Positions 13,043 through 29,702 of a stretch of DNA of 64,000 bases are shown piece after piece. A model generated the notes under the pieces. It was not told the origin of the DNA. It made no database searches and was given only the letters and a program-made list of their open reading frames with translations. A program made the position numbers and the translations under genes. The stretch is taken from positions 3,224,001 to 3,288,000 of the forward strand of contig NZ_CP021377.1 of NCBI RefSeq assembly GCF_002157895.1, read 5' to 3'. Source of the stretch: Oceanisphaera profunda (GTDB taxonomy: Bacteria > Pseudomonadota > Gammaproteobacteria > Enterobacterales > Aeromonadaceae). Position 1 is the first letter of the stretch. Each line of letters opens with the position of its first letter.

Positions 13043-13718
13043 CACCTTTTTTGTCACCGGCACCGATACCGAAGTCGGAAAAACCTTTGTCACGCGCGCC
13101 TTGATGCAAGCTGCTATTGAGTCTGGTCGAAAAGTGCTGGGCTATAAACCCGTGGCCTCGGGCTGTGAACTGCAAGACGGTGAGCTAAAAAACAGTGACG
13201 CGCTCACGCTGCAGGCCTGTTCTTCCATTACCTTGCCCTATGCCATGCATAACCCGTATGCCTTTGCGCCGGCCATAGCGCCGCATATTGCCGCGGCTCA
13301 AGCTAATGAGTCCATTAACGTGGCACGCTTAAGTGAGGGCTTGGCACGACTCAAAGCCACCGCCGCCGATGTGATTTTTGTAGAAGGAGCAGGGGGCTGG
13401 CGCTTACCCATTAATGACCGCCAGTATTTATCTGATTGGGTAAAGTCTGAGCATTTGCCGGTGATCTTGGTGGTGGGCGCGCGTTTGGGTTGCATTAACC
13501 ATGCGCTGCTTACCTTAGAGGCGATTCGCCACGACGGTTTAGTGGTGGCGGGCTGGGTGCTGAATCAAATAGATCCCACCATGAGCCAGTATCAAGCCAA
13601 TGTCGATACCCTTAAACAACGCATTAAAGCGCCGTTTTTAGGGGAGATCCCTTGGCTGGGTGAGCAAGCCAATGACAGCGTGCATAACTTTATTGATATT
13701 GCGGCGTTACTTAAATAA
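13035..13718 (+). CDS. bioD: Dethiobiotin synthetase BioD
   Basis: ATP-dependent carboxylase closing the ureido ring of DAPA to dethiobiotin (227 residues). The P-loop is FVTGTDTEVGKTFVTRAL; further marks are KPVASGCE, VEGAGGWRLPIN (normally EGAGG) and GWVLNQID. The ATG at 13035 lies inside the last codons of bioC, which points to translational coupling. Last gene of the bio cluster. Confidence 0.96.
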   Translation: MANTFFVTGTDTEVGKTFVTRALMQAAIESGRKVLGYKPVASGCELQDGELKNSDALTLQACSSITLPYAMHNPYAFAPAIAPHIAAAQANESINVARLSEGLARLKATAADVIFVEGAGGWRLPINDRQYLSDWVKSEHLPVILVVGARLGCINHALLTLEAIRHDGLVVAGWVLNQIDPTMSQYQANVDTLKQRIKAPFLGEIPWLGEQANDSVHNFIDIAALLK

Positions 13719-13775
13719 GTAAAATAATACATAATCAATGACTTGAATTTGGCGTAATCAGCCCGATTATATTGG

Positions 13776-13812
13776 GAGTAGGTGAAGGGTGAGGCGTAAA
13801 GAGTGAAGGGTA
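13776..13812 (+). repeat. Purine-rich repeat downstream of bioD
   Basis: AGTAGGTGAAGGGTGAGGCG then TAAAGAGTGAAGGGTAG, beginning 57 bp after the bioD stop, sense orientation to bioD. Confidence 0.65.
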
Positions 13813-13922
13813 GCCTGATACTTTGTGCTGACCTTGTTTTATAGCATAGGTTTTGTAGCCTAGCAGGTACGCAACACCACTTTTATCGTAATTATTTAAG
13901 TACACTTTTAACAAGGGAACGT

Positions 13923-14792
13923 ATGAAACGCATTATATTGTTTATCGCTACCAACTTGGCCGTGGTATTGGTGTTGGGCGTGGTGCTAAACATAGTGTTT
14001 TCTATGCTGGGTATCGACCGCAGCAGCATTACTGGCTTGTTGGTATTCTGTGCCGTGTTCGGTTTTGGCGGTGCATTTATTTCACTGCTGATTTCAAAGT
14101 GGATGGCTAAGCGCGCCTATAACGTGCAAATCATCGAGCAGCCACGTAACGAACTGGAGCACTGGTTGCTAAGCACTGTTACCCGCCAAGCACAACAAGC
14201 GGGCATCGGCATGCCAGAAGTGGGCATTTATGATTCACCGGATATGAACGCCTTTGCCACCGGTGCCAGTCGCAACAGCTCTTTGGTAGCCGTATCCACC
14301 GGGCTAATGCGCAGCATGAGCCGCGACGAAGCCGAAGCCGTACTGGCCCACGAAGTTAGCCACATCGCCAACGGCGACATGGTAACCATGACCTTATTGC
14401 AAGGCGTGGTGAATACCTTCGTGATGTTCTTTGCGCGCATAGTGGCGAACCTTATCAGCAGCGCCATGAACAAAGACAACGAAGAAGGCGGCGGCTTAGG
14501 CGGTATTGCTTACTTTGGTGTGGTGATGGTACTGGAATTAGTGTTTGGCATGCTGGCTTCCATTATCGTGATGTGGTTTAGCCGCTACCGCGAATACCGT
14601 GCCGACGAAGGCTCGGCACGCTTAGTTGGCAAAGACAAAATGATTGCCGCCTTGCAGCGTTTAGGCCAAGGCTCACAAGCCGAATTAGACGGCTCACTGG
14701 CCGCCTTTGGTATTAACGGTCAAGGCAAGAGCGAACTGTTTATGAGCCATCCACCGCTCGAAAAGCGCATCCAAAGCCTGCGTAATCTGTAA
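13923..14792 (+). CDS. htpX: Membrane zinc metalloprotease HtpX
   Basis: Inner-membrane M48 protease for quality control of membrane proteins (289 residues). Two N-terminal transmembrane segments ([20 protein letters not shown] and [20 protein letters not shown]), the zinc motif HEVSH in [16 protein letters not shown], two more hydrophobic segments after it, and the third zinc ligand in [15 protein letters not shown]. Length and order match E. coli HtpX (293 residues). Single gene with a strong terminator about 65 bp downstream. Confidence 0.97.
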
Positions 14793-15119: not shown

Positions 15120-16208
15120 TTAGGCATTAATCAACCGGCGCAGTTTGGTCATTACATCCAGGTTATTGTCTTCCATGGCGGAGAGGGCGGTTAAGGCATC
15201 TTGATCTCGTTGCTCATGGTGCGCCTGCACGGCCTCTTTGGCATATACATGCACTAAGCGATGGGGCGCCTCTATGGCGGAAAAGTCTAAGCGACCCGCA
15301 TAATGCTTAACGCCACTGCCTTTGTAGTACCACTGACCCAATTGGCATTGAGTCTCGTCGGGCAGCGCATCGGCTTTAACATCTGATAAGCCGGATAAAA
15401 TCTGATACACCGTCAGCTTAATCTCTAGCTCTTCCAGATTGGCTAACTCAATTTCTGACAAAATTGCCGCATCGCCCAAGGCGCTGGATGAGGTATTAGC
15501 CAGCTCAATTAAGCTCAATAAACGTAACCGTGCCGACTCCGCCTCTTGCGCTAATTGCTCCATTTCCACGCTGTTATCGCGACTCACGCCCGCCACCGCT
15601 ATGGTTTGATTACGAATGCGCCCAATCACAGTATCTATCTCTTTAGTGGCTTCACCGGTGCGCGAGGCTAAACTGCGCACTTCGGTGGCCACCACACTAA
15701 AGCCACGGCCATGCTCACCGGCGCGCGCCGCCTCTATGCTGGCGTTTAAGGCCAACAAAGAGGTTTGATCCGACACCCCATCAATCACATGCACCAGTTT
15801 GGTAATGCCGTTTGTTTCTGACTCTAAGGCATTCATTTGCTGAGCCGAGTCCATGGCGTGAGTTCTGGCCGCGTTAAGCTGATCCACCAAAGTGCGCATG
15901 CCATCGCGCATCTGGGCTGACTCATCACGGGTGGTTAGCGCCTCATCGCGCCGCGCGCCTAACATGCCAGATAAATCAGCAAAGGAGCCCTTAAGCTCAG
16001 ATAACGACTGACCAAACTGGCCCAAGCCCGACATTAACTTATGGCCTAAATAAAGTTGGTTTTTGGTCGCTTGTAACTCGCTTTCTTGCACGCTGAGCAT
16101 CTGCTCTAGCTGGGCATTATCTTGTTGTAGCGCTAATAGCTCTTGCTGCGTGTTGAGCAGCTGGGCACTGAGCTGAGCTGCTTTTTTCTTACTCGCATTA
16201 AAAAACAT
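15120..16208 (-). CDS. Soluble methyl-accepting chemotaxis protein with C-terminal CZB domain
   Basis: A 362-residue chemoreceptor without transmembrane segments. Residues ~1-50 form a coiled coil ([20 protein letters not shown]), followed by an MCP signalling domain whose tip [20 protein letters not shown] and [20 protein letters not shown] is well conserved. The C-terminal ~100 residues carry the CZB zinc-binding pattern: Cys in [14 protein letters not shown], then [19 protein letters not shown] with the spaced His residues. CZB chemoreceptors sense cytosolic zinc or, through zinc-bound Cys, oxidants such as hypochlorite; which applies here is not known. Confidence 0.92.
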
Positions 16209-16413
16209 GTATCGCCTCTTTTATTACCATCTTGTAAAACTTGGCCATTGCGCAAATATCGCACCTTAATGGCACATAATATGGCCATATACTACACCCA
16301 AATGAGACGACCTTCTGCAGCTAAATCAGCCATTAAAAATAAATATAACGGCATCGCACAGCCAAAATAGCCACTGTGCTTGCCTTTATCTGACGTGCAC
16401 GGCATTAGCCTAA

Positions 16414-16428
16414 AAACTTAATAAGTTT
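16414..16428. promoter_or_regulatory. Palindrome upstream of the WYL regulator
   Basis: AAACTT-AAT-AAGTTT, perfect 6-bp arms with a 3-bp centre, 59 bp before the regulator start. Autoregulatory operator is an inference. The rest of 16209-16487 is AT-rich promoter-like DNA without a clear gene. Confidence 0.35.
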
Positions 16429-17070
16429 GAACCTAAGAGATATTTTGCTTTAAATGGTGCTAATCAATAAAAATAAAGCAGAGCTCCATGATGAAAACCA
16501 CACCAGAACGTCGATTTTGGCTAATTGAATTATTAACAAATTGGGAAGGCCGTATTACCTGCGGTCATTTACAATACTATTTTAATTTAGGTCGACAACA
16601 AGCCAGTAAAGTGATTAACCAATATTTGGAAGCAAACCCTGGTCACTTAATTTATTGCACCTCTGCCAAAAGCTATTTACCGGCCACTGACTTTAAACCC
16701 ACATATATCAGCCATGATGTGGCTGAATATCTTAATTGGATAAGCGGCCAAAGCCCGCAACTGCCATTGTCAGATGATAAATACCAGTTGGCGCATACTA
16801 TTCTCAGCCCACCGGCGCGTAATGTTAGCCCCCATATTATGCGGCCACTAGTGCATGCAATACGCCAAGGTGAACGGCTAGAAGTCGACTACGGCGCTGT
16901 TACTCATCCGGATAGAAGTGGCCGCATTATCGTGCCCATTCGCTTTGTTAACACCGGCCGCCGCTGGCATCTGCGTGCTTGGTGCGAAAAAGCTCAAGGT
17001 TATCGTGACTTAGTACTGAGTCGCCTGCACGGCACCCCCAATCCCGAAGGAAAAGTCTTGAGTGACTTGC

Positions 17071-17080
17071 CTCCCGATAC
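17071..17080. repeat. Target site duplication, left copy
   Basis: CTCCCGATAC, identical to 18398-18407 on the other side of the element. A 10-bp duplication fits the ISAs1 family (8-10 bp). Confidence 0.93.
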
Positions 17081-18397
17081 CAGGGCAAGATCTCGAACGT
17101 TTTTTAGCCAACTCAGCTATATTTGACCTGCTCGCCTCAGTGTGATCTTATACTCTCTTTTGGGAGAGCCTAGATGAACACGGATGCTTTTACACAGTAT
17201 TTTGGTGAGATAGACGACCCTCGCCAACCAGCCAAAATTATCTATCCGCTATTCGATGTATTGTTCCTCACTATTTGTGCTGTCATCGCTGGTGCTGAGG
17301 GTTGGGAAGACATCGAAGACTTTGGGAGTGCCCACCTGAATTGGTTTCAAAAAAAGGGCTTATTTCCAGAGGGAGTGCCAGTTCACGACACTATCGCTAG
17401 GGTGATTTCCCGCCTCGATCCCGTTCAGTTTCAGCAATGCTTTATTCGCTGGGTTCAGTCGATAACACACCGTACTGATGGTGAGCTTATCGCCATTGAT
17501 GGCAAGGTACTACGCGGCTCTTACGATAGAGAGAATAGACAATCGACCATCCATATGGTCAGCGCTTTTTCCTCCGCTAATGGCGTGGTCATGGGCCAAT
17601 TAAAAACCAATGCCAAGTCGAACGAAATTACCGCTATTCCAGCGCTGCTCAAGTTGTTGGATATCAAGGGATGCTTGATTTCTATTGATGCCATGGGCTG
17701 TCAGACCAACATTGCCAAGACTATTATCAACCAAGGTGGCGACTATTTACTGGCAGTAAAAGGTAATCAAGAGTTGTTGTTTAAAGCGGTGCGAACAGCC
17801 CTATCAGCTAGCATAGCTGTCTCCACAAACTCCGATAAGATCAACATTGAGCAGGGGCACGGTCGTACTGAGATCCGAGAATATCATGTATTGCCAGCAG
17901 GCGATTTAGCGCACCAGTTTCCTGACTGGAAAGGCCTAAAAACTATCGGGGTGGCTATTGGCTATCGTCGTGAAAAATCAGGTAAATCCTCGCTTGAGTA
18001 TCGTTACTATATCAGTTCAGCAGAGCTCGATAGTATCCGTTTCGGCAAGGCAGTCCGTGGGCATTGGGGTATCGAAAATAGCCTGCATTGGGTGTTGGAT
18101 GTGTCAATGAAAGAAGATGCCTGCCCCATTTACCGTGAGAATGGGGCTGAAGTGCTGGCGAGCATCCGTCACTTAGCACTCAACATGATACGCTCTGAGA
18201 CATCAAGGAAAGCCAGTGTTCGTCGAAAGCAAAAAATGGCGAGTATGAGTTGTGCTTACTTGGATAAAATATTAGTTGCTGGATTTACTGTGTTGGGCAA
18301 AAAATAAACAAAGATGATCTCACTATACAAAATTGATTATTTTTTATGCACGACTAACTTAGTATGCTAAGAACAATATGTTCACGCTCTCACCCTG
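17081..18397 (+). mobile_element. ISAs1-family insertion sequence, complete (1317 bp)
   Basis: Left end CAGGGCAAGATCTCGAAC and right end, read inward on the other strand, CAGGGTGAGAGCGTGAAC: about 12 of 18 positions agree, beginning with CAGGG as is usual for the family. The element is bounded by identical 10-bp duplications and contains one intact transposase gene. A second, subterminal inverted repeat (AGTGTGATC near 17137 and GATCTCACT near 18315) lies inside. Intact ends, duplications and transposase suggest a recent insertion that could excise precisely. Confidence 0.93.
17174..18307 (+). CDS. ISAs1-family transposase
   Basis: A 377-residue DDE transposase. The N-terminal DDE_Tnp_1-associated domain is seen in FGEIDDPRQPAKIIYPLFDV and GAEGWEDIEDFG. 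Catalytic residues are expected at LIAIDGKVLRGSYD (first Asp), LISIDAMGCQTNIA (second Asp) and HWGIENSLHWVLDV (Glu region), followed by HLALNMIRSE. Full length with no frameshift, so probably active. It lies in the same direction as the interrupted regulator and the cas genes, so readthrough from the element toward cas1 is possible. Confidence 0.96.
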   Translation: MNTDAFTQYFGEIDDPRQPAKIIYPLFDVLFLTICAVIAGAEGWEDIEDFGSAHLNWFQKKGLFPEGVPVHDTIARVISRLDPVQFQQCFIRWVQSITHRTDGELIAIDGKVLRGSYDRENRQSTIHMVSAFSSANGVVMGQLKTNAKSNEITAIPALLKLLDIKGCLISIDAMGCQTNIAKTIINQGGDYLLAVKGNQELLFKAVRTALSASIAVSTNSDKINIEQGHGRTEIREYHVLPAGDLAHQFPDWKGLKTIGVAIGYRREKSGKSSLEYRYYISSAELDSIRFGKAVRGHWGIENSLHWVLDVSMKEDACPIYRENGAEVLASIRHLALNMIRSETSRKASVRRKQKMASMSCAYLDKILVAGFTVLGKK

Positions 18398-18407
18398 CTC
18401 CCGATAC
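18398..18407. repeat. Target site duplication, right copy
   Basis: CTCCCGATAC, partner of 17071-17080. The regulator frame resumes directly after it. Confidence 0.93.
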
Positions 18408-18662
18408 TGCGTGGAACACTAACATCGTACTGCGTATTAAACCGGATCCCCGTTTAAACGAGGCACAACAAGCCGCGATTATTCATGACTACGGCATGCA
18501 CAACGGCGAATTATCGCTCACTGTCCGCGCCGCGCTAGCCCATTATTTATTACAAGAAATGCAGATAAATATAAAAATGCTCGATGGTAATCCCGTCGCC
18601 CAGCAATTAATTTTGGTCAATGTTGATGCAATAAAGCCCTGGCTGTTTACTTGATCCTCGAT

Positions 18663-18687
18663 AACATGTCGCTTCAGGCGACATGTT
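18663..18687. promoter_or_regulatory. Perfect inverted repeat between the regulator and cas1
   Basis: AACATGTCGC and GCGACATGTT with loop TTCAG. It starts 9 bp after the regulator stop and is followed by TATATAACC. It could be a weak terminator (the T tract is short) or an operator for the cas1-cas2-3 promoter. Neither is proven. Confidence 0.6.
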
Positions 18688-18761
18688 TATATAACCAGTA
18701 TTGGCGCAAGCGGTAGAAAAAGGGAGAGTAGGGCAATGCATAAAAATGAGGGGGACGCCAA

Positions 18762-19769
18762 ATGGATGATTTTTCACCATCTGACTTGAAAGCTATTTTG
18801 CACTCTAAACGTGCTAATCTCTTTTACCTAGAATATTGTCGGGTGATGCAAAAAGACGGCCGCGTGCTGTATCTGACCGATGCAGAAAAAGAAAACCTCT
18901 ATTACAACATTCCCATCGCCAACACTACCGTCTTGTTGTTGGGCAATGGCACCTCTATTACTCAAGCGGCGATACGCATGCTCGCTCAAGCAGGTGTGTT
19001 AGTGGGGTTTTGCGGTGGCGGCGGCACGCCACTGTATATGGGCAGCGAGGTGGAATGGCTCACGCCTCAAGGGGAATATCGACCCACCGAATATCTGCAG
19101 GGCTGGCTGGGTTTTTGGTTCGATGATAAACAACGCCTCACAGCTGGCCAGCAAGTTCAGCAGGCGCGTATCGACTTTTTGCGGCAAGTCTGGCAAAAAG
19201 ACCGAGACCTAAAACAAGAAGGCTTTGACTTTAATGACAGCTTGATCCAAAAGGCCTTGGATACTTTTTATACTCGCACCGCCGCCGCCACTAAACCCGC
19301 CGATCTACTGCTGACCGAAGCCCAGTTAACCAAAACGCTTTATAAATATGCCGCTCAAACTACAGGGCAGAGTGGCTTTACTCGCAAACATCAGTCGATA
19401 GATAAAGCCAATGACTTTCTTAATCACGGTAACTATTTAGCATATGGTTTAGCGGCCTGTTGTTTGTGGGTACTGGGTATTCCTCATGGCTTTGCGGTGA
19501 TGCACGGTAAAACCCGTCGCGGTGCGCTGGTGTTTGATGTGGCGGACTTGATTAAAGATGCACTGGTGCTGCCTTGGGCCTTTGTCTGTGCCAAAGAAAA
19601 CGCCACCGAGCAAGAGTTTCGCCAACAAGTCTTACAAGCCTTTACCGATCATAAGGCGCTGGATTTTATGTTCGATACCGTTAAAGCCATCGCTCTACAG
19701 GGCAAATCTATACCAGACATATCTAGGCCAGAAACAGCTACGCCAGACACAGAGGGACCAACGCTATGA
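18762..19769 (+). CDS. cas1: CRISPR-associated endonuclease Cas1, type I-F
   Basis: Integrase subunit for spacer acquisition (335 residues). The I-F-type N terminus is clear (DLKAILHSKRANLFYLEYCR, VLLLGNGTSITQAAIRMLAQ, VLVGFCGGGGTPLY). The metal site residues by alignment with known I-F Cas1 are E186 (LLTEAQLTK), H248 (MHGKTRRG) and D262 (FDVADLIKD). The stop overlaps the cas2-3 start (ATGA), so the two are translated together, fitting their physical Cas1-Cas2/3 complex. Confidence 0.97.
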   Translation: MDDFSPSDLKAILHSKRANLFYLEYCRVMQKDGRVLYLTDAEKENLYYNIPIANTTVLLLGNGTSITQAAIRMLAQAGVLVGFCGGGGTPLYMGSEVEWLTPQGEYRPTEYLQGWLGFWFDDKQRLTAGQQVQQARIDFLRQVWQKDRDLKQEGFDFNDSLIQKALDTFYTRTAAATKPADLLLTEAQLTKTLYKYAAQTTGQSGFTRKHQSIDKANDFLNHGNYLAYGLAACCLWVLGIPHGFAVMHGKTRRGALVFDVADLIKDALVLPWAFVCAKENATEQEFRQQVLQAFTDHKALDFMFDTVKAIALQGKSIPDISRPETATPDTEGPTL

Positions 19770-22700
19770 TGGTGATCTTTGTGTCCCAGTGCGAAAAGAA
19801 AGCCCTGCCCAGAACGCGTCGCGTGCTTGACGCCTTTGCTAATCGCATTGGTGATAATACTTGGCAAACCCTGATCACCGAAGACGGCTTGCTTACCGTG
19901 CAAAAAATGCTGCGCCAAACTGCCAGTAAAAGCTCGGCTATTAGCTGTCATCAATTGCGCTCCCGCTCGCGTAGCCAGTTGTTATGGATTGTGGGTAATA
20001 AAAAGAAGTTTAATAGCGAGGGCATAGTGGCGGTAAACAGCACCGAACAAGATTTATTGAACAACGACGCCGAGCAGAACTGGAAATACCTGCCGCTGAT
20101 CACCGCTTTTACCGGATTGGCGGCGTTATTACATGATTGGGGAAAATCCACCAAATTATTTCAGGATAAGCTTAAGCCTCAATCAAAAAACAGTTTCAAA
20201 GGCGATCCGTTGCGCCATGAGTGGATCTCTAGCCTGTTGTTAATGGCGTTGATCCAATCCGGCAAAGCACCTGACCAAGATAGCAGCTGGCTTGAACCGT
20301 TCTTGGAACAATCCATCGATGAAACACAATTAACGGCGGCCATTCCCGTATTATCGCAAGCGCATGCCCCGTTCAGTAATTTGCCCGATGCCGCCGCCAT
20401 TTTATTATGGCTGGTGCTGTCTCATCATCGGCTGCCAAAACCCGCCAATAAAGATAATTTTGGCGATAAAACCAATCAGACTCCGCAGCAGTTATTACAA
20501 CGACTTAGCCAACAGTGGGGCTATGAAAACCGCCCCCGTGACGATGTGGAGCAGGCGGAATTTAAGCAGCGACTAGCCGACTGTTTTGTTTTTCCCCAAG
20601 GCTTGTTATCCGACTCCGCTCGTTGGATGCAGGCGCTTAGTCACCGAGCCCGACAATTGCACGCGCATTTGCCACTGGTCGCCGAAGCTATACAAGATGG
20701 CAGCTGGCGCACCATCGCTCATCACGCTCGGCTCTGCCTAATGGTGGGCGATCACTATTACTCATCACAAGCTCAGGCGACTAATTGGCCAAATACCGTC
20801 AACTTATTCGCTAACACGCACAGTGAAGGCCCAGAACGAGGCCAGCTTAAACAACAGTTAGACGAGCACTTGGTTAATGTGGCCAAGGTTGCGGTGAATA
20901 CCTGTCGCATGTTGCCAAGTTTTGAGCGAGACACGCCTAAAGCAGAAGATATTCAACAGCTAAAACCCTCGAAAAATTTATCTGCCGCCCTCAAGAAACA
21001 ATTTGGCTGGCAAGATAAGGCGGTGACGGCCATTAAAGAATACCGACTAGAAAATGACGATAACATCGGCGGCTACTTTATTGTCAATATGGCCAGCACT
21101 GGGCGGGGTAAAACCTTGGCCAACGCCAAAATAATGCAGGCCTTATCGGGTGATCAACAAAGTTTGCGCTTTATTCTGGCGCTAGGATTAAGAACCCTGA
21201 CCCTGCAAACTGGCGATGAGTATCGAGATCGGATTGGTCTCGCCGATGATGAGTTGGCGGTATTAATTGGCTCTAAAGCGATTCTAGAACTGCATCAAGA
21301 CTCCAAGAGTGCGCTTGAAAAAGACGAGCAGTCGCTTCCCGAGGAAGATTTTGGTTCAGAGTCTTGTGAGCCCTTGCTGGGTGAACAAGAAGAGGTAGTG
21401 GGTGCCAGTGGTCACATCAGCCATAACACCAGCAATGATATGAGCAATGATGATGAGCCTTGGCAAAACCTACTGCCAGAAGAAGAATTAACCACGGTAC
21501 TTACCGGTCGCAAAGAGCGTGCCTTGCTCTATGCGCCCGTGCTTGCCTGCACCATCGACCATATTATGGCGGCCACCGAAACCACACGAGGTGGCCGCTA
21601 TATTTTGCCCAGTTTGCGTTTGATGTCATCCGATTTAGTGATCGACGAAATTGATGATTTTACCGGAGAAGATTTAGTGGCCATTGGCCGACTGATTTAT
21701 TTGGCAGGCATGTTAGGGCGCAAGGTCATGATTTCGTCGGCGACGATCCCACCGGATTTAGCTCTCGGTTACTTTAGCGCCTATCAAAAAGGCTGGGCGC
21801 TGTTTGCTGCCAGCCGCCATCAACGCAGCCAAGTGGCTTGTGGCTGGACCGATGAATTTAAAAGTCAATTAGTGACCATTAATCAGGGCGAAGCCGCGAC
21901 CGCTAACTATCAAGCGGCTCATCAGGCTTTCATAGAAAAGCGCGTAATCAAGCTGCGCGCCGAGCCGGTTAAGCGCCGTGCCGAGATCATCCCTTTGCCC
22001 GAGCCTGTGGCAGGCGAGCCTCATGAGTCGAGCTACTTCTCCACCATTCAGCAAGCAATACTGACCAAGCATTATCAGCACCACCAACAGGATGCTAAGA
22101 CCGGCCGTCAGGTTTCTTTTGGCGTGGTGCGCTGTGCCAATATTTTACCGTGTGTGACCTTAACGGAATATCTGTTGGATGCCTCATGGCCCGATGATGT
22201 AACGGTGCGAGTGATGGCTTATCACAGCCAACAAGTGCTCTTGTTGCGTCACGCTCAAGAGCAGCATTTGGATCAGGTGTTAAAACGTAAAGTTCCCGTC
22301 AACGATACGGACGGCGTGTTTCAGCATCCCGTTATCCGCCAGCACTTGGATAATGATGACAGCAAACAGCTGATCTTTATCTTGGTGGCCACGCCGGTAG
22401 AAGAAGTAGGGCGCGACCATGACTTCGATTGGGCGGTAGTCGAGCCGTCTTCATTTCGCTCAATTATTCAATTAGCGGGTCGAGTACGCCGTCATCGCGA
22501 CGCTGACCCAGATAATGAAGTCCCCAATATGGGGTTGTTACAATTCAATATAAAAGGTTATCGGGGCGAGAAAAAAGACGTCTTTAGCCACCCAGGTTAT
22601 GAGCAAGGCGATTTGCAGCTGTTTTCTCGCAACCTATCGGATTTAGTTGATGAACCTGCCCTCAAGCGCTGCGTGGATGCGACGCCGCGAATGTTTAAAG

Positions 22701-23200
22701 ACTCCAAGGTACAACTTGCCGCACTGGAGCACCACGCCATTGGTCGGACATTGGGTTGTCATTATCTGAAAGGCGAACAAAAGCCTAAGGATGATCCGGC
22801 TCAAAGCCCGAAAAGTCTGTGGGGTTACACCGATGATTACTGGTGGATGACGGCACTACCGCAACAGTTTAACCAATTTCGTCGTAGTGACCCTGGGATC
22901 AACCTTTACTGTGTCATTAATGAACAAGGCCTATCGCGCTTTCAGATTTACGACCGAAAAAGTGGCTGGGTTGATGTTGAAAAATTACTCGGCATTACTC
23001 ATCAATCGTTAAGTGAGCACAGGATGACGCGGCTGTGGTTGGTGCGTGACTATGCCGCATTAATTGCAGCACAAAGTGCATTAAAAGACCAAGACACAGA
23101 GCACACCTCGCGGCGGCTAGGGGAAATCAGCCTGCAGTATTACAAAGAAGGCCATCGCTATCGGTACAACGAGCAGCTGGGATTGGTGAGGGTTAAATAA
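19766..23200 (+). CDS. cas3: Cas2-Cas3 fusion nuclease/helicase, type I-F
   Basis: A 1144-residue fusion diagnostic of type I-F. Residues ~1-95 are Cas2-like (MMVIFVSQCEKKALPRTRRV). The HD nuclease follows with H123-D124 (LLHDWGKSTKLF) and further His residues (LVLSHHRLPKP). The SF2 helicase has Walker A around K449 (MASTGRGKTLANAK), a DEID box at D627 (LVIDEIDDF), motif III-like ISSATIPPD, and motif VI QLAGRVRRHR near residue 902. An acidic, low-complexity linker (about residues 510-570) separates helicase motifs and makes it a little longer than the P. aeruginosa protein (about 1076). It degrades targeted DNA and joins Cas1 in adaptation. Confidence 0.97.
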   Translation: MMVIFVSQCEKKALPRTRRVLDAFANRIGDNTWQTLITEDGLLTVQKMLRQTASKSSAISCHQLRSRSRSQLLWIVGNKKKFNSEGIVAVNSTEQDLLNNDAEQNWKYLPLITAFTGLAALLHDWGKSTKLFQDKLKPQSKNSFKGDPLRHEWISSLLLMALIQSGKAPDQDSSWLEPFLEQSIDETQLTAAIPVLSQAHAPFSNLPDAAAILLWLVLSHHRLPKPANKDNFGDKTNQTPQQLLQRLSQQWGYENRPRDDVEQAEFKQRLADCFVFPQGLLSDSARWMQALSHRARQLHAHLPLVAEAIQDGSWRTIAHHARLCLMVGDHYYSSQAQATNWPNTVNLFANTHSEGPERGQLKQQLDEHLVNVAKVAVNTCRMLPSFERDTPKAEDIQQLKPSKNLSAALKKQFGWQDKAVTAIKEYRLENDDNIGGYFIVNMASTGRGKTLANAKIMQALSGDQQSLRFILALGLRTLTLQTGDEYRDRIGLADDELAVLIGSKAILELHQDSKSALEKDEQSLPEEDFGSESCEPLLGEQEEVVGASGHISHNTSNDMSNDDEPWQNLLPEEELTTVLTGRKERALLYAPVLACTIDHIMAATETTRGGRYILPSLRLMSSDLVIDEIDDFTGEDLVAIGRLIYLAGMLGRKVMISSATIPPDLALGYFSAYQKGWALFAASRHQRSQVACGWTDEFKSQLVTINQGEAATANYQAAHQAFIEKRVIKLRAEPVKRRAEIIPLPEPVAGEPHESSYFSTIQQAILTKHYQHHQQDAKTGRQVSFGVVRCANILPCVTLTEYLLDASWPDDVTVRVMAYHSQQVLLLRHAQEQHLDQVLKRKVPVNDTDGVFQHPVIRQHLDNDDSKQLIFILVATPVEEVGRDHDFDWAVVEPSSFRSIIQLAGRVRRHRDADPDNEVPNMGLLQFNIKGYRGEKKDVFSHPGYEQGDLQLFSRNLSDLVDEPALKRCVDATPRMFKDSKVQLAALEHHAIGRTLGCHYLKGEQKPKDDPAQSPKSLWGYTDDYWWMTALPQQFNQFRRSDPGINLYCVINEQGLSRFQIYDRKSGWVDVEKLLGITHQSLSEHRMTRLWLVRDYAALIAAQSALKDQDTEHTSRRLGEISLQYYKEGHRYRYNEQLGLVRVK

Positions 23201-23203
23201 TGG

Positions 23204-23224
23204 AGTCGCTCCTAAGGAGCGACT
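23204..23224 (+). terminator. Hairpin after cas2-3
   Basis: AGTCGCTCC-TAA-GGAGCGACT, a perfect 9-bp stem beginning 4 bp after the cas2-3 stop, with only a weak T tract (TATGGG). A second smaller stem-loop (CTGCC...GGCAG) follows near 23230-23243. With the 260-bp gap to csy1 it suggests that adaptation and interference genes are separate transcripts. Confidence 0.55.
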
Positions 23225-23460
23225 TATGGGCTGCCTGTATGGCAGTAAAGTAAATAAAGAGTACATAGTCTTCTAAGCTGCCTGCTTGGCAGGAGGGCAA
23301 TGTTATCAGGCGTAAGTGAGATCGCCAACTTTCAACAACCCATTTGTACACCACTTATCCTAGCTATATTGGTTTTTATAATAATGAGTATATAGTGGTT
23401 ATTAATGTTGTTGGGGTGCTCTATTCTCATCTCATCGTTTAGTGATAGGGAAACATAAAC

Positions 23461-24726
23461 ATGCTTGATGCAGCGATTGAGGCCTTCTTTACCGAGCGCA
23501 AAGACGCTTGGTTAAAGAAGAACCTCAAGGCCACCATGGAAGAACATGAAGTACGAGAGCAAGAACTGGCTTGTGAAGACATTTTTTCCCTCAAAAATTG
23601 GCTGCCCAATGCGGCCAAGCGAGCGGGTCAAATCTCGCTGGCCAGCCATCCTTGCACTTTTAGTCACCCCAGTGCGCGTAAAAATAAAAATGGCTATGTA
23701 AGCTCAATTATTGCCAGAGCTGACCGGGCTGCGGATGGTTTTTTACGCAGTGGTAACCTGCAAGTTGAAATTGATGCGCTGGGCAATGCGGCGGCATTGG
23801 ATGTGTATAAATTTCTGACTTTGGTGATGGAGGATGGAGATACCTTGCTTGAGCATTTACAGCAAGACAGTGAGCTGGCTAATCATTTATTGACCTGCGG
23901 TGAAGGTCATATAGATGAGCTGAAAAGTGGCTTTTTAGAAATGGTGGCCGTTAAAGACGAAGCCATTACCAGTTCTAAAATCAAGCAGGTTTATTTTCCT
24001 GTTACCGCAGAAGAGCAGGGCTATCACTTGCTGTCTATCTTGAGCCACTCGGGCCATATCTTTGAAATGCGCCAGCGCCTAGATAAATTGCGCTTTTCTG
24101 ACGACACCAAGGCGACCAGAGAGCTAAGAAGAAATAACCAATTTTCTTCCGTGGGCTATCAAGAAATTTATAACCTAACCACCATCGGCTATGGCGGTAC
24201 CAAACCACAAAATATCAGCGTGCTGAATAACCAGAATGCGGGCAAAGCTCATCTGTTGTTGTCCATGCCTCCCGAACTTGCTCCTCGAAGCGTACGCTTG
24301 CCTACTGGTAATTTTTTTGGCGACGTCTTATACCCAAGGCAGCTACAACAGACCTTTGAAGCCTTTCATCGGTTGTTAACAGCCGACTACAACAACGCCA
24401 ACATCCGCAACGCGCGGGATTATCGTATTCAAGAATATCTCGATCAATTGATCTTAAAAATGTGGCAGGTGCGCCGTGCCTTTGGCGATCAGCCCCATGC
24501 TCGGCCAGCGCACTTAGAGCCTTACCAAAAGCAGTGGTTATTTCCTGAATACCAAGCCGAACGTACCCCAGATGCCCCTTGGTTAAGCACTTTAGTTGAG
24601 GATGCCGCTCGACATTTTATTTTTAGTTATCAAAGAGTAGCGGGTAAGTCGGCAATTCAGCTTGGTGATACCGAGCTGGCGGCATTTGCTCGCATTATTG
24701 AACAAAACAAGGAGGCGCTGCTATGA
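23461..24726 (+). CDS. csy1: Cascade subunit Cas8f (Csy1)
   Basis: Large subunit of the I-F surveillance complex that reads the PAM and holds the 5' end of the crRNA with Csy2 (421 residues; P. aeruginosa Csy1 is 434). Family stretches seen include ISLASHPCTFSHPSARKNKN near residue 60, TIGYGGTKPQNISVLNNQNA and RSVRLPTGNFFGDV. The ATG at 23461 has AGGGAAA upstream. An AT-rich gap before it is probably the promoter of the interference operon. It overlaps csy2 by 4 bp. Confidence 0.95.
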   Translation: MLDAAIEAFFTERKDAWLKKNLKATMEEHEVREQELACEDIFSLKNWLPNAAKRAGQISLASHPCTFSHPSARKNKNGYVSSIIARADRAADGFLRSGNLQVEIDALGNAAALDVYKFLTLVMEDGDTLLEHLQQDSELANHLLTCGEGHIDELKSGFLEMVAVKDEAITSSKIKQVYFPVTAEEQGYHLLSILSHSGHIFEMRQRLDKLRFSDDTKATRELRRNNQFSSVGYQEIYNLTTIGYGGTKPQNISVLNNQNAGKAHLLLSMPPELAPRSVRLPTGNFFGDVLYPRQLQQTFEAFHRLLTADYNNANIRNARDYRIQEYLDQLILKMWQVRRAFGDQPHARPAHLEPYQKQWLFPEYQAERTPDAPWLSTLVEDAARHFIFSYQRVAGKSAIQLGDTELAAFARIIEQNKEALL

Positions 24727-25670
24727 GTACCCGTCGACTGCTGGAGCTTGCGCACCTTAATATTCATAACGCCAATGCGCTGTCTAGTCCTTACACCATT
24801 GGCTTTCCTGCCATGACCGCTTGGCTGGGCTTTGTGCACGCATTGCAGCGTAAATTAAATGCCGCTGGCTACCCAACGTTGGAGTTGGTGGCCACGGGAG
24901 TATTCAGCCACCGCTGTGATCTACAAACTCATCAAGGGCCCGGGGATTTTGTGCACTCCATTATTGGCACCGCCAACCCCTTAGATAAAGACGGCAAACG
25001 CTCGGCTTTTATTGAAGAGGCGCGCTGCCACCTAGATGTGAGTCTGCTTATTGAATACCAAGCACAAGAAAGTGATGAAGAGCGCATGCAACGGCCCGAG
25101 TTCATGGCGCTATTAGAGCAACTGTTAACACGCATGAAAGTGGCGGGTGGCGATCTACTTAGTTTTAATACTCCGCAGCTGCACGTGTTAGATGACAGTG
25201 AACCACAAGCCGTGCGTCGCTTATTACTAAATCTAATGCCGGGTTTTGCGCTAATTGAGCGTCGCGAACTGATGCAGCAAGCGATGGAAGAGGGCGCCGA
25301 TGCACTGGATGCACTGCTTGAATACCTCACCATCCATCACAGCTGTGAGCAAAATGACACCGGCGAAGTGACTTGGCGTAGTCAGCGAAAAGCCGGCATT
25401 GAAGGTGAGAAGCCGGGCTGGATAGTGCCTATTGCCACGGGTTTTCACGGCATTAGCCCGCTTGGTCTCGCGAAAAATCAGCGCGACCCCGATACCCCCC
25501 ATCGTTTTGCCGAGAGCATAGTCACCTTAGGCGAATTTAGGATGGCGCATCGGATACACAGTTTAGATGAGGTGCTGTGGCACTACCACACCGACCTTAA
25601 TCGAGATCTTTATTTGTGCCAGCAGGCACAGCCCGAAATAACGGACACCATTAACGACGGTCGTTACTAA
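24723..25670 (+). CDS. csy2: Cascade subunit Cas5f (Csy2)
   Basis: Cas5-type RAMP that binds the 5' handle of the crRNA with Csy1 (315 residues). The N terminus LAHLNIHNANALSSPYTIGF and PAMTAWLGFVHALQRKL is strongly diagnostic. Later stretches include GFHGISPLGLAKNQRDPDTP and RFAESIVTLGEFRMAHRI. Starts within the last codons of csy1 (ATGA overlap). Confidence 0.96.
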   Translation: MSTRRLLELAHLNIHNANALSSPYTIGFPAMTAWLGFVHALQRKLNAAGYPTLELVATGVFSHRCDLQTHQGPGDFVHSIIGTANPLDKDGKRSAFIEEARCHLDVSLLIEYQAQESDEERMQRPEFMALLEQLLTRMKVAGGDLLSFNTPQLHVLDDSEPQAVRRLLLNLMPGFALIERRELMQQAMEEGADALDALLEYLTIHHSCEQNDTGEVTWRSQRKAGIEGEKPGWIVPIATGFHGISPLGLAKNQRDPDTPHRFAESIVTLGEFRMAHRIHSLDEVLWHYHTDLNRDLYLCQQAQPEITDTINDGRY

Positions 25671-25699
25671 CTTAACTTAATGAATAACTGGAGCATCAC

Positions 25700-26725
25700 A
25701 TGGCTAAAGTAAAAGATATTGCATCGGTACTGGCATTTGAAAAGAAGCTGGTTCCGTCTGATGGTTTTTTTTATGGCACCACTTGGGATAATAAAGACCA
25801 GGTCACGCCGCTGGCATTACAAGAAAAGTCGGTACGCGGCACTATCTCAAACCGCTTAAAGGCGGCGGTAAAAAATGACCCGGCCAAGCTGGATGCGGAA
25901 GTTGAAAAACCCAACCTGCAAACCGTAGATGCCTGCGCCTTGGGTACCGAGCAAGACACGTTAAAACATTACTTCACCTTAAAGATACTGGGTGGTGTTG
26001 AAACTCCTTCGGCCTGTAATAGCGCCGGCTTTAAAGCCAGTTACCAGCAGGCGGCCAAAGCTTATATTGAAAAAGAAGGCTTTACCGAACTAGCTCGCCG
26101 TTATGCTATCAATATCGCCAATGCGCGCTTCTTGTGGCGCAACCGAGTCGGTGTTGAACAGATTGAAGTACAGGTAAAGGTGCTAAATAAAGATCAAACC
26201 CAGAGCTGGATCTTTGATGCTACCCAATACAGCACCCGTCACTTTGATTATGCCGACAAACAACTGACAGAGTTGACTGATAAAATTGCCCAAGCTCTGG
26301 CAGGTGGCGACACCAGTTTACTGCTGGAAATTGCGACCTTCGCCCAACTGGGTAAGGCGCAAGAAGTGTATCCATCTGAAGAGCTGGTACTAGACAAAGG
26401 CAAAAGCAAAAAGAGCAAGGTGTTGTATCAAGTACAAGGTCACGCTGCCATGCACTCACAAAAAATTGGCAACGCTCTGCGCTCCATCGATACCTGGTAT
26501 CCGGCCTTTGCAGATCAAGAAAAGACCGCAGGCCCGATTGCCATTGAACCGTACGGCGCCGTCACTAACTTGGGCACCGCCTTTCGCACGCCAAAAGAGA
26601 AGCAGGATTTCTATAGTCACTTCGATAAATGGGCTCGGGGCGAGGCATTGTCACGGGTAGAAGACGAGCACTACGTGATGGCAATTTTGGTACGCGGCGG
26701 CGTGTTTGGCGAGAGCGATAAATAG
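25700..26725 (+). CDS. csy3: Cascade backbone subunit Cas7f (Csy3)
   Basis: Backbone protein that coats the spacer part of the crRNA in six copies (341 residues; P. aeruginosa Csy3 is 342). Highly conserved blocks: ASVLAFEKKLVPSDG, EKSVRGTISNRLKAAVKNDP, LARRYAINIANARFLWRNRV, MHSQKIGNALRSIDTWYPAF and the C-terminal VRGGVFGES. Ribosome site CTGGAG about 9 bp upstream of the ATG. cas6f follows after 9 bp. Confidence 0.97.
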   Translation: MAKVKDIASVLAFEKKLVPSDGFFYGTTWDNKDQVTPLALQEKSVRGTISNRLKAAVKNDPAKLDAEVEKPNLQTVDACALGTEQDTLKHYFTLKILGGVETPSACNSAGFKASYQQAAKAYIEKEGFTELARRYAINIANARFLWRNRVGVEQIEVQVKVLNKDQTQSWIFDATQYSTRHFDYADKQLTELTDKIAQALAGGDTSLLLEIATFAQLGKAQEVYPSEELVLDKGKSKKSKVLYQVQGHAAMHSQKIGNALRSIDTWYPAFADQEKTAGPIAIEPYGAVTNLGTAFRTPKEKQDFYSHFDKWARGEALSRVEDEHYVMAILVRGGVFGESDK

Positions 26726-26734
26726 AGGTAACCC

Positions 26735-27367
26735 ATGAATTACTACCAAGACATCACCTTGCTGCCGGATGCGGACATTGCGCTGGGTTTTCTCTGGCAG
26801 AAAATCTACCAGCAGGTGCACATTGCACTGGTCGAACAAAAGGTCGACGAACAGCACAGTGCTATTGCCGTGAGTTTTCCTAGCTTTGGCAGTAACGGCT
26901 TTCCACTGGGTAATAAACTGCGGGTGCTGGCTAAAGAGCAAGCACAGTTGGAGAAATTGAATTTGGCGGGGTTTCTCAGTCGGTTTGAGGATTACACCCA
27001 TTTGAAATCGATTCAGCTGGTGCCTGAATCGGTCTCTCATGTTGCGTTTGTTCGCCATCGGGTAAAAGGCCAGGCTCGCATCGAAAAAGACATGCTCAGT
27101 AAAGCTCAGATCTGGTCTACAAAGTCAGGCCAAAGCCTTGAGCTGTGCTTGCAGCAACTGGAGAAAAGCAAACCCGCAGCGGACTCGAAATTGCCTTTTA
27201 TCTGGATGGAAAGCTTGGAGACCAAAGCGAAAAACCTCACCGGTTCGGCTAAGTTTCCATTGTTTATTGAACGGGTAGAAGTAGCAGGTGTAAGAGAAGG
27301 GCAGTTAAATTGCTATGGCTTAAGTGCAGTACGAGGCGAGCAAATAGCTTCAGTACCGCATTTTTAA
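26735..27367 (+). CDS. cas6f: crRNA endoribonuclease Cas6f (Csy4), variant with few arginines in the RNA-binding helix
   Basis: Processes pre-crRNA at the base of the repeat hairpin and stays bound to it (210 residues; P. aeruginosa Csy4 is 187). The N terminus MNYYQDITLLPDADI matches Csy4, and His29 (QQVHIALVEQ) falls exactly at the catalytic His29. The C-terminal CYGLSAV and final aromatic are present, though the usual PWF end is PHF. In well-studied Csy4 proteins the helix after residue ~105 is packed with Arg and enters the RNA groove; here that region reads ARIEKDMLSKAQIWSTKSGQ and is poor in Arg, and an extra ~20 residues follow. RNA recognition may therefore differ. Confidence 0.93.
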   Translation: MNYYQDITLLPDADIALGFLWQKIYQQVHIALVEQKVDEQHSAIAVSFPSFGSNGFPLGNKLRVLAKEQAQLEKLNLAGFLSRFEDYTHLKSIQLVPESVSHVAFVRHRVKGQARIEKDMLSKAQIWSTKSGQSLELCLQQLEKSKPAADSKLPFIWMESLETKAKNLTGSAKFPLFIERVEVAGVREGQLNCYGLSAVRGEQIASVPHF

Positions 27368-27495
27368 CCTCAAAATAAGCTCTTTAAAAATATACAATTA
27401 AAACAGATAGTTACAACAGCGCTGAAAATAAGGGTATTTTTTCATATTCTTAGCTAAGCCTTTGTTGTAACTATTTTTTGTGTTAAGTTTCTACT
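27368..27495 (+). promoter_or_regulatory. CRISPR leader
   Basis: A 128-bp, AT-rich stretch between cas6f and the first repeat, where the leader of I-F arrays lies. It contains a perfect 12-bp inverted repeat, ATAGTTACAACA (27407-27418) and TGTTGTAACTAT (27463-27474), with 44 bp between. A promoter for the array and sites for IHF-type bending are expected here but I cannot assign them with certainty. Confidence 0.8.
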
Positions 27496-29207
27496 CTTCA
27501 CCGCCGCACAGGCGGCTTAGAAATAACAGTTAGCAATTTAAACTGCTGATAAGTGCTTCACCGCCGCACAGGCGGCTTAGAAAAAACCGCGAGCTTACAA
27601 ACCGTGCCTGGTCAACTTCACCGCCGCACAGGCGGCTTAGAAAACCTTGCATTCGTGACGGTCACAACTATAATTCTTCACCGCCGCACAGGCGGCTTAG
27701 AAATAACGCGCATCTTATGGAACCGCCTTGGCATGCTTCACCGCCGCACAGGCGGCTTAGAAACGTAATAAAAGTAGTTAATAACACAATCCCCCCTTCA
27801 CCGCCGCACAGGCGGCTTAGAAAGCTTCACTGCGCCCCTTTCCGCTATTGGTTGCCTTCACCGCCGCACAGGCGGCTTAGAAAGCTACACGCCCAGCGCC
27901 AGCGAGTAACCATGCCTTCACCGCCGCACAGGCGGCTTAGAAAACTAAGGCGTTTCACTTAGCCAAGGCATACATCTTCACCGCCGCACAGGCGGCTTAG
28001 AAATTAACCTGCGTTAGGGCGCGGGCTTCAAATGCCTTCACCGCCGCACAGGCGGCTTAGAAAAAGCACGGAGTTTTTTAACATAATCAGAGATGCTTCA
28101 CCGCCGCACAGGCGGCTTAGAAATGTACCCTCTACACCCGTGCGTCGGCGGCGGACTTCACCGCCGCACAGGCGGCTTAGAAATCCGACACACTCGATGC
28201 CGTGGAGTGCTACGGCTTCACCGCCGCACAGGCGGCTTAGAAAACAAGGAGCGGTAGGCCGAACCTTACCCTTAGCTTCACCGCCGCACAGGCGGCTTAG
28301 AAATGAATTTGTAGGGTTGTTTCGGGGTTAAGGTTCTTCACCGCCGCACAGGCGGCTTAGAAAAAGTTCACAGCTAAGGGTATTAACTGGCTAGCCTTCA
28401 CCGCCGCACAGGCGGCTTAGAAAACATGGCCAAGCACACCGGCTTTGCAGAACGCCTTCACCGCCGCACAGGCGGCTTAGAAATCAATGAGCTGGGCGAT
28501 CACCGCTTCGTTGTCCTTCACCGCCGCACAGGCGGCTTAGAAAGTGCTGTGATCAACAAGGTCGATCCATGTTTGCTTCACCGCCGCACAGGCGGCTTAG
28601 AAATTGCCCCACGTTGGCCCAGCCCGATCGGATCTCTTCACCGCCGCACAGGCGGCTTAGAAAGTCCGCCGTTTCCGTGCCGTTTATGAATGCCGCTTCA
28701 CCGCCGCACAGGCGGCTTAGAAATGCTGTTCGCCGTGGCTCCGGTCGTCTTGCTCCTTCACCGCCGCACAGGCGGCTTAGAAACTCCACCTATTGCCATG
28801 CACATTTCTTTTTTACTTCACCGCCGCACAGGCGGCTTAGAAACGTGCACAATACGATCCGGTACTCCTCGGCGTCTTCACCGCCGCACAGGCGGCTTAG
28901 AAAAAACCAAGGAGGGTCAAATGTTTAAATATAACCTTCACCGCCGCACAGGCGGCTTAGAAAGCGAGTGTAAAGCGGATGCTGGTGGTGATGATCTTCA
29001 CCGCCGCACAGGCGGCTTAGAAAAATGGAAGGGAGCCGAAAGAGCCATCAGGGATAGGGATCTTCACTGCCGCACAGGCAGCTCAGAAAATGGACACCGG
29101 CCAGCATTACCCAGCGTAACGGTTCACTGCCGCACAGGCCGCTCAAAAAGTTACTACCAGTTTTGAGCGGTTTTGTAAACTTTACTGCCGAACAGGCAGT
29201 TTATAAA
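27496..29207 (+). CRISPR. Type I-F CRISPR array: 26 identical 28-nt repeats plus 3 degenerate trailer repeats
   Basis: Repeats start at 27496 and recur every 60 bp to 28996, all identical: CTTCACCGCCGCACAGGCGG then CTTAGAAA, with a CCGCC/GGCGG stem around GCACA. Spacers are 32 nt. Three further repeats at 29062-29089, 29122-29149 and 29180-29207 have the stem CTGCC/GGCAG or damaged forms of it, and lie at the end far from the leader. The spacer before the first of them is 38 nt and the last one is 30 nt. 28 spacers in total. Direction is set by the leader next to cas6f and the decayed distal end. Confidence 0.98.
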
Positions 29208-29702
29208 TAGCATCAGGGCAGGGTGTTAAGCCGGTTGGTTTTTGAGGCTGGTGGGTCGAACAGCCTGTAGGGGCTCTGTGAAACAGGACAGGCCTTAAGA
29301 GCTCTTCTCTGAATTCATGGGTTACACCAAAACCGTGCCGATACTCTTTACCTACCAACAAGGTGGGCACACTACAAAAACACCGAATCAACAGGTACGG
29401 TGTTACACGTATGCACTCCCCATCACCCACCGCATGTAGTCATTCCGAACTCCAAGCTCAAGACACACACTACGCCGTGCCAAACGGTTACGCCGGTGGC
29501 GTAATGTGAGCACAGGTATACGCCTGCTAAACACTGGCTGGTATTTGCCTCTTTTCATCCGCTAATTCATGTCAACCGGCTCACGAACTAATAGTCAGCG
29601 TACATACTGAAGGGCAGGTGGTGTTAAAAATAAATGTCACCGATTTTAATCTGCTGCGTCTAATAGGGTAGGCATCCAAAAACAGTGATGGAGAATCTCG
29701 GT
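29208..29702. other. Non-coding stretch between the CRISPR array and the sigma factor gene
   Basis: No convincing gene. It holds a fragment of a dispersed TGTAG-ended palindromic element at 29329-29380 (AAACCGTGCCGATACTC ... GGGCACACTACAAAA), the reverse complement of a piece at 36325-36381. The promoter of the sigma factor gene should be in the last 150 bp, but I see no clear -35/-10 pair. Confidence 0.6.

Follow-up and report, generated by a model that had tools for sequence, protein, structure and literature searches.

What switches on a CRISPR-Cas operon, and how a system that has just been acquired comes under the control of its host, are open questions that meet at a locus of Oceanisphaera profunda. 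In the window, a stretch of 64,000 nucleotides (NZ_CP021377.1, positions 3,224,001 to 3,288,000), a gene for a WYL-domain regulator stands upstream of a type I-F cas operon and is split by an insertion sequence of the ISAs1 family. Judged by sequence comparison, the main outcome is broader: one branch of the BrxR/CapW regulators is dedicated to CRISPR and, together with a conserved operator-like element, precedes type I operons that are exchangeable. We consider it likely that regulator and operator act together as a control unit, and that type I operons have replaced one another behind it. With one protein, one site and four kinds of type I operon as interchangeable outputs, both questions become testable. 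In the open-access literature of PMC, searched by title and opening of the abstract, no paper was found on one WYL regulator before several CRISPR subtypes or on exchange behind one.

A recent insertion splits the regulator gene

The regulator gene and the insertion sequence consist of the following features:

16488..17080, + strand: 5' part of the regulator gene (winged helix-turn-helix (wHTH) and WYL domains, codons 1-197 and part of 198); the open reading frame continues to 17126 inside the element
17071..17080: left target duplication, 10 bp, CTCCCGATAC
17081..18397, + strand: ISAs1-family insertion sequence, 1317 bp
17174..18307, + strand: intact transposase, 377 amino acids, matching DDE_Tnp_1 and DDE_Tnp_1_assoc
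18398..18407: right target duplication, 10 bp, also CTCCCGATAC
18408..18654, + strand: 3' part of the regulator gene (WCX region), in frame from the ATG at 18364 in the element

Members of the ISAs1 family have CAGGG ends, a DDE transposase with DDE_Tnp_1_assoc and a target duplication of about 10 bp. All of these are found in the inserted copy, which carries CAGGG at both outer ends. Scripted removal of the element and one duplication gives a single open frame of 279 residues, rejoined at codon 198, which encodes a wHTH-WYL-WCX protein. The initial annotation had described both the identical duplications around a 1317-bp element with an intact transposase and the rebuilt protein, and both are confirmed on the sequence. 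The split gene is not a product of chance, as G402, the nearest relative and a member of the same genus, carries an uninterrupted homologue with 84% identity from end to end.

The genome, 3.5 Mb in one contig, contains four copies of the element in all. The three others do not differ from the window copy at any of the 1317 bases, and an exact 10-bp duplication is found at each; the insertion is therefore recent, as had been proposed. It lies past the WYL domain and cuts the C-terminal WCX region off from the rest of the regulator. The 3' fragment is an open reading frame of 96 amino acids (18364-18654) that starts in frame at an ATG within the element, and two separate regulator fragments could thus in principle be made. 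The insertion destroyed the regulator but spared the operator, the promoter and every cas gene, which makes the window a natural loss-of-regulator mutant. An outward promoter of the insertion was considered and rejected: a single promoter-like site is present in 16200-18800, within the insertion, which is fewer than in shuffled sequences (mean 5.4).

The regulator is a relative of BrxR and CapW

The WYL domain of the rebuilt protein matches PF13280 (residues 117-181, 44 bits). By sequence, its best solved relative is the BrxR of Acinetobacter (7t8k, E 2.3e-47, residues 9-268), and the CapW structures 7tb5, 7tb6 and 9c5g also match. Foldseek, used with an AlphaFold model of a homologue, places BrxR first (7t8l, E 7e-21) with CapW also leading; this model is modest (predicted local distance difference test, pLDDT, 68.6) and served for domain order and family only. 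The order wHTH-WYL-WCX follows from PF13280 and the near-full-length sequence and fold alignments, the WCX by homology only. The RQQ of the BrxR DNA-contact motif is kept in the window protein. A WYL regulator of CapW/BrxR type, as first suggested from the window, is borne out by these matches, and the protein probably acts as a dimer.

Among WYL proteins, PafBC, DriD and SiwR are activators. PafBC and DriD give weak fold matches, with 13-16% identity over full-length matches, and they have different promoters and targets. Acinetobacter BrxR (7t8k, 7t8l), the top match by sequence and fold, has the same domain order, and the geometry of its site, 10-bp arms and a 5-bp spacer, is that of an inverted repeat in the window (PMC9122589). 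However, the BrxR site is at the promoter of the bacteriophage exclusion (BREX) operon, ahead of the gene for BrxR itself, while the conserved element of the window comes after the regulator gene and before the cas genes. CapW shares the architecture and the dedication to one type of immune operon (PMC9122588), but it heads the cyclic-oligonucleotide-based antiphage signalling system (CBASS), its site overlaps the -10 hexamer and its own gene is controlled from the shared promoter region. Full-length similarity and a position at the head of a defence operon thus join the regulator to BrxR and CapW. A site upstream of the own gene or in a shared promoter, typical of the family, was not found as a copy of the element, although an unrelated other site may be present there.

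WYL proteins have been predicted as regulators of CRISPR-Cas loci (PMC4012209). The example cited there, sll7009 of Synechocystis, is a WYL protein controlling a CRISPR-Cas locus, but the locus is of type I-D and cyanobacterial. In Marinomonas mediterranea, a WYL gene upstream of the I-F operon is mentioned and included in an RNA sequencing (RNA-seq) analysis (PMC8523701), where the text consulted gives it no part in regulation; its likeness to the window gene is one of position.

A conserved element lies between the regulator and the cas genes

The regulator stop codon (18654) and the cas1 start (18762) are 107 bp apart, and the gap contains an inverted repeat of BrxR type followed by a sigma-70-like promoter:

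18663..18687: perfect inverted repeat AACATGTCGC-TTCAG-GCGACATGTT, 10-bp arms and 5-bp spacer, candidate binding site of the regulator
18667..18705, + strand: 39-bp element, common to regulator-headed I-E, I-F1, I-F2 and I-C operons, overlapping the inverted repeat
18701..18706, + strand: predicted -35 hexamer TTGGCG of the cas promoter
18724..18729, + strand: predicted -10 hexamer GAGAGT, 17-bp spacer

A model of the 39-bp element was trained on 15 loci of the genus, and the threshold was set at the 99.9th percentile of Markov-shuffled gaps. The element set comprises 45 loci, the 49 CRISPR loci minus L170, L167, L162 and L040. The element was found in 19 of 30 held-out loci (5 I-F1, 2 I-F2, 8 I-E and 4 I-C), a test that is not fully blind, as the seed of the model was drawn by eye from all loci. 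In the main clade of the regulator tree, described below, it occupies the gap in 17 of the 22 members outside the genus; the remaining 14 belong to the genus and are training members. No copy was found upstream of the regulator (0/45 regions), at non-CRISPR homologues (0/35 downstream and 0/35 upstream) or upstream of I-F cas1 genes without the regulator (0/18). Within the window the element is unique, scoring 41.9 against -1.0 for the next site under a model built with the window among its loci. In the whole genome, the element sequence of the window matches solely at its known place within 3 mismatches, where more diverged sites are possible, and the strict exact pattern has no match in viral contigs. 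A clean case is provided by G547, a genome from outside the order that was seen only afterwards: here the element lies directly after the regulator (score 40.4, next on the strand -15.0) and is followed by weak cas3 matches. In a second late genome, G564, neither the element nor a cas match is present within the stretch examined.

The end of the element is also tied to the promoter. Counted from the TTG at this end, a -10-like hexamer (xAxxxT) follows at a spacer of 17 in 63% and of 16 in 21% of 38 loci, and at no more than 5% for each of the other spacers in the range 12-23. The -10 region is outside the element model, and in the 5 of 38 loci where the TTG is absent the model position was substituted.

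Given this conserved operator-like element between the two, the regulator very probably controls the cas operon, and the initial annotation's proposal of control over the cas genes 107 bp downstream is strengthened. Of the two binding sites it had suggested, the repeat at 18663-18687 is part of the conserved element; the palindrome at 16414-16428 is not supported, the element being found upstream of the regulator in none of the 45 loci. Alternatively, the 39-bp element could be an RNA attenuator or a terminator of the regulator transcript and not a protein operator, as the arms of the window copy are able to form a 10-bp stem just past the stop codon. However, a terminator scan reports none at the inverted repeat, the conservation reaches beyond the stem with the -10 hexamer at a fixed distance, and in 16 of 38 element copies the arms match at 6 or fewer of 10 positions. 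An RNA element is therefore highly improbable.

The regulator tree does not follow the CRISPR subtype

Some homologue of the regulator is present in 160 of 394 genomes of the order. At no fewer than 17 of the 63 places with an I-F cas1 above the family cut-off (joined coordinates), a homologue lies directly upstream, so the intact neighbour of I-F cas1 that had been predicted in relatives does exist. Other close homologues head I-E, I-C or I-F2 operons. The proposed tie to the I-F system thus holds in so far as the regulator precedes I-F cas1, but it is not restricted to I-F: at the same place in the chromosome, close relatives of it stand before I-E and I-C operons.

The regulator tree contains 77 proteins, i.e., 84 loci minus L170, L167, L162 and L040 (same genomes), L166 (deleted gene) and L134 and L121 (short contigs). 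A supported clade (99/91) comprises 36 rows, all upstream of CRISPR-Cas operons: 19 I-E, 9 I-F1, 6 I-C and 2 I-F2. As far as the sequences tell, this tree does not follow the CRISPR subtype. On the whole tree, the 13 I-F1 rows take 12 changes (shuffled mean 12.2) and the 7 I-C rows take 6 (shuffled mean 6.8). Supported sisters of unlike subtype are the window (I-F1) and L161 (I-E), L165 (I-E) and L042 (I-F1), L047 (I-E) and L049 (I-C) of Shewanella, L046 (I-C) and L048 (I-E-like) of Microbulbifer, and L080 (I-F1) and L081 (I-E). Subtypes were called from single-linkage clusters, PADLOC on ten proteins of three loci, and tblastn; for L041, L047 and L121 the I-E call comes from a cas3 truncated by the contig end, and L048 and L090 are termed I-E-like, their cas3 being 31% identical to the I-E reference. 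The 35 non-CRISPR rows stay together (2 changes). Non-CRISPR here means that no such cas gene is present in the fetched stretch, which is shorter than 5 kb downstream for L098, L106, L113 and L117; L117 has two homologues, one of which was scored. Genome G227 has two CRISPR loci, L131 and L133 (I-F1 and I-C), each with its own WYL gene before it, and the two genes are sisters in the tree.

It could be argued that the WYL gene is a general regulator of defence islands that lies beside CRISPR by chance, and that the insertion is without effect on the CRISPR loci. BrxR homologues are linked to many defence systems and genes of this family commonly adjoin them (PMC9122601), and the more distant homologues, 35 rows of the tree, adjoin other genes. 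However, 36 of 36 members of the main clade are upstream of CRISPR operons, and the element that fills the gap in most clade members outside the genus is found beside no non-CRISPR homologue. Chance neighbourhood appears very unlikely, and we suggest that the split gene encoded a CRISPR-dedicated transcription factor of BrxR/CapW type. As a caution, a WYL gene found next to one CRISPR subtype does not by itself show that the two have coevolved.

Probable exchange of type I operons at one place in the chromosome

Within the genus, 23 genomes were searched and type I operons were located by cas1. The regulator is upstream of the first cas gene in 14 of 15 type I operons, the split copy of the window and a deleted copy included. 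In 13 of 15 carrier genomes it lies within 3 kb of htpX; of the other two, one has it at a distance of 11 kb and one on another contig. The operons at the htpX site belong to at least five lineages, two I-E, one I-C and two I-F; in the I-E lineages, cas3 shares 76-82% or 47% identity with the I-E reference, itself located at the site. Upstream genes are also shared by L047 with L049 in Shewanella, and by L044, L046 and L048 together in Microbulbifer, but not by L043.

Alignments across the gap locate the probable exchange. Over the last 300 nt of the regulator gene, the window agrees with L161 (I-E), the copy of G402, at 251/300 positions and with L042 (I-F), from Oceanisphaera arctica, at 195/300, and up to the middle of the operator at 35/38 and 31/40, respectively. 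Right of the crossover, L042 is the closer one, with 66/76 against 43/75 for L161 and then 250/301 against 102/364. The best partner of the window switches from L161 to L042 inside the operator, so that the operator resembles a chimera made at a point of exchange. In Shewanella, L047 (I-E) and L049 (I-C) agree at 715/822 positions of the regulator and 123/140 of the leader, and then at 171/453 from the cas start codon. For L083 (I-F1) and L085 (I-E) the corresponding series is 510/600, 64/65 and then 97/372. In L090 (G171, 3964-4402), the regulator is followed by remnant starts of I-F cas1 and cas2-3 and then by an I-E-like operon; a cas2 frame was not seen at this locus.

If regulator and cas operon always travelled together, the mixed subtypes would reflect repeated transfer of whole cassettes into a hotspot. 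Such an import would leave a 3'-end fragment of htpX, as is seen upstream of the cassette of G402, and between the window and G402 the regulator has 84% identity while htpX has 99%. However, in both the L047/L049 and the L083/L085 pair the homology spans regulator and leader and ends at or near the cas start, the window operator matches different relatives on its left and right, and L090 retains I-F starts ahead of an I-E-like operon. Obligate co-travel is thus a less likely explanation of the mixture. Whole-cassette transfer probably occurs too, as indicated by the htpX fragment. The regulator is more diverged than htpX, so cassettes also move with their regulator. The fragment itself (L177, 13303-13407) encodes 35 residues at 91% identity and precedes the WYL gene, at a distance of about 11 kb from the intact htpX; it is a possible scar of cassette import.

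Several observations weigh against a dedicated control unit with exchangeable operons. The element scores below threshold in 11 of the 30 held-out loci (L045, L049, L089, L094, L109, L121, L129, L130, L131, L133 and L134), and five of these belong to the main clade. Six CRISPR rows of the tree fall outside the 36-row clade, and I-E is somewhat clustered, with 14 changes for 19 rows (shuffled mean 17.1, 14 of 500 shuffles as low). Taken jointly, the labels cluster more strongly than in shuffles (20 changes against a mean of 36.9), which comes mainly from the separation of CRISPR rows from non-CRISPR ones. To these are added the modest structural model, the seed drawn by eye and the difference between regulator and htpX in G402 noted above.

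We suggest that the exchange behind a shared regulator could proceed as follows. The regulator would respond to a ligand and bind the candidate operator, which lies in the gap between the regulator gene and cas genes and immediately precedes the cas promoter. Regulator, operator and promoter would constitute a control unit at a fixed chromosomal site, behind which whole type I operons (I-E, I-C, I-F1, I-F2) are exchanged, at times through a crossover in the operator or leader and at others as one complete cassette that carries the regulator along. In the window, the recent ISAs1 insertion would have removed the regulator, while operator, promoter and cas genes remain. More tentatively, it can be speculated that the site is a chromosomal socket: incoming type I operons of any subtype would recombine at the operator or leader, the operator being a preferred recombination tract, and gain infection- or damage-responsive control, and the window would be a socket whose regulator has just been lost. 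If so, a lineage could change its CRISPR subtype without losing regulation.

Natural mutants and the sign of control

In G250 (L166, ~14187-14612), the regulator has been lost a second time, independently of the window, through internal deletions that leave residues 1-69 and short later pieces. By eye, most of residues 70-278 is missing, and tblastn detects 1-69. All I-E genes of this locus are open, and an operator arm and the -35 hexamer deviate from the consensus. G394 (L171) has at the same site an I-F operon that is 81-96% identical to that of the window, with neither regulator nor element. In this genome, a short-chain dehydrogenase gene (13260-14132) occupies the place of the regulator before the I-F operon. 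The window, G250 and G394 can serve as natural controls.

In the window, the centre of the inverted repeat is about 61 bp upstream of the predicted transcription start, which was set 7 bp after the -10 hexamer and falls near 18736. Operators at this distance are typical of activators, not of blocking repressors. From this position we lean slightly towards activation over repression, and put the chance that the regulator is an activator at about even; the insertion would then silence the cas operon of the window. A test for weak promoters counts against activation, as promoters with the regulator score 6.14 (12 loci) and those of I-F operons without it 6.11 (18 loci, p 0.98); relative to shuffles, promoters behind the regulator are slightly higher-scoring (p 0.09). 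The promoters behind the regulator are no weaker, so it is the operator position that speaks for activation.

The regulator could also be a repressor like CapW and BrxR, in which case the insertion derepressed the I-F operon. Its closest solved relatives are Acinetobacter BrxR (7t8k) and CapW, CapW and the BrxR of E. fergusonii are reported repressors (PMC9122588, PMC9122601), and the repeat of the window has the arm and spacer lengths of the Acinetobacter site (PMC9122589). The independent loss in G250, which left all I-E genes open, also fits repression. However, published sites of BrxR and CapW overlap the -35 and -10 hexamers and lie upstream of the own gene or in a shared promoter (PMC9122589, PMC9122588), while the present site lies well before the predicted start and has no copy upstream of the regulator. 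Repression is thus a serious possibility that we rate somewhat short of even. That the insertion affects cas control, as the initial annotation held, agrees with a lost regulator and an intact operator; its derepression goes further than this, the operator position being activator-like and the family known for repressors.

The cas operon of the window and further homologues

The window contains all parts of a type I-F1 system (cas1, a cas2-3 fusion, csy1-csy4 and a CRISPR array), the genes being assigned by family match and the array by the Rfam gathering score:

18762..19769, + strand: cas1 (I-F)
19766..23200, + strand: cas2-3 fusion (I-F)
23461..24726, + strand: csy1 (cas8f)
24723..25670, + strand: csy2 (cas5f)
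25700..26725, + strand: csy3 (cas7f)
26735..27367, + strand: csy4 (cas6f)
27496..29207, + strand: CRISPR array of 28 repeats (CRISPR-DR4)
16224..29623: regulator, cas operon and array, 13.4 kb; the flanking genes are ~280 bp apart in the related G168 (L176)

A second cas1 of the same genome (L178, G000:C1 2944000-2962000; L178:11528-12505) lies near a gene with a weak CARF (Card1-like) match and is perhaps part of a type III locus. It was left out of the type I count, and neither the window regulator nor the 39-bp element has a match at L178.

Farther homologues of the regulator adjoin other genes; among ten neighbour proteins scanned, a few look defence-like, e.g., a type IV restriction enzyme. 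Of 682 plasmid records with a match, none reaches 60% identity, and in a class-wide search 2 of 368 other genomes have a match at E 1e-55. At L045, two other frames separate the regulator from cas3. The I-F2-like operons L094, L104 and L139 also have a WYL gene upstream; L104 contains Cas3fv, Cas7fv and Cas5fv by PADLOC, and L094 and L139 were assigned as I-F2-like by cluster.

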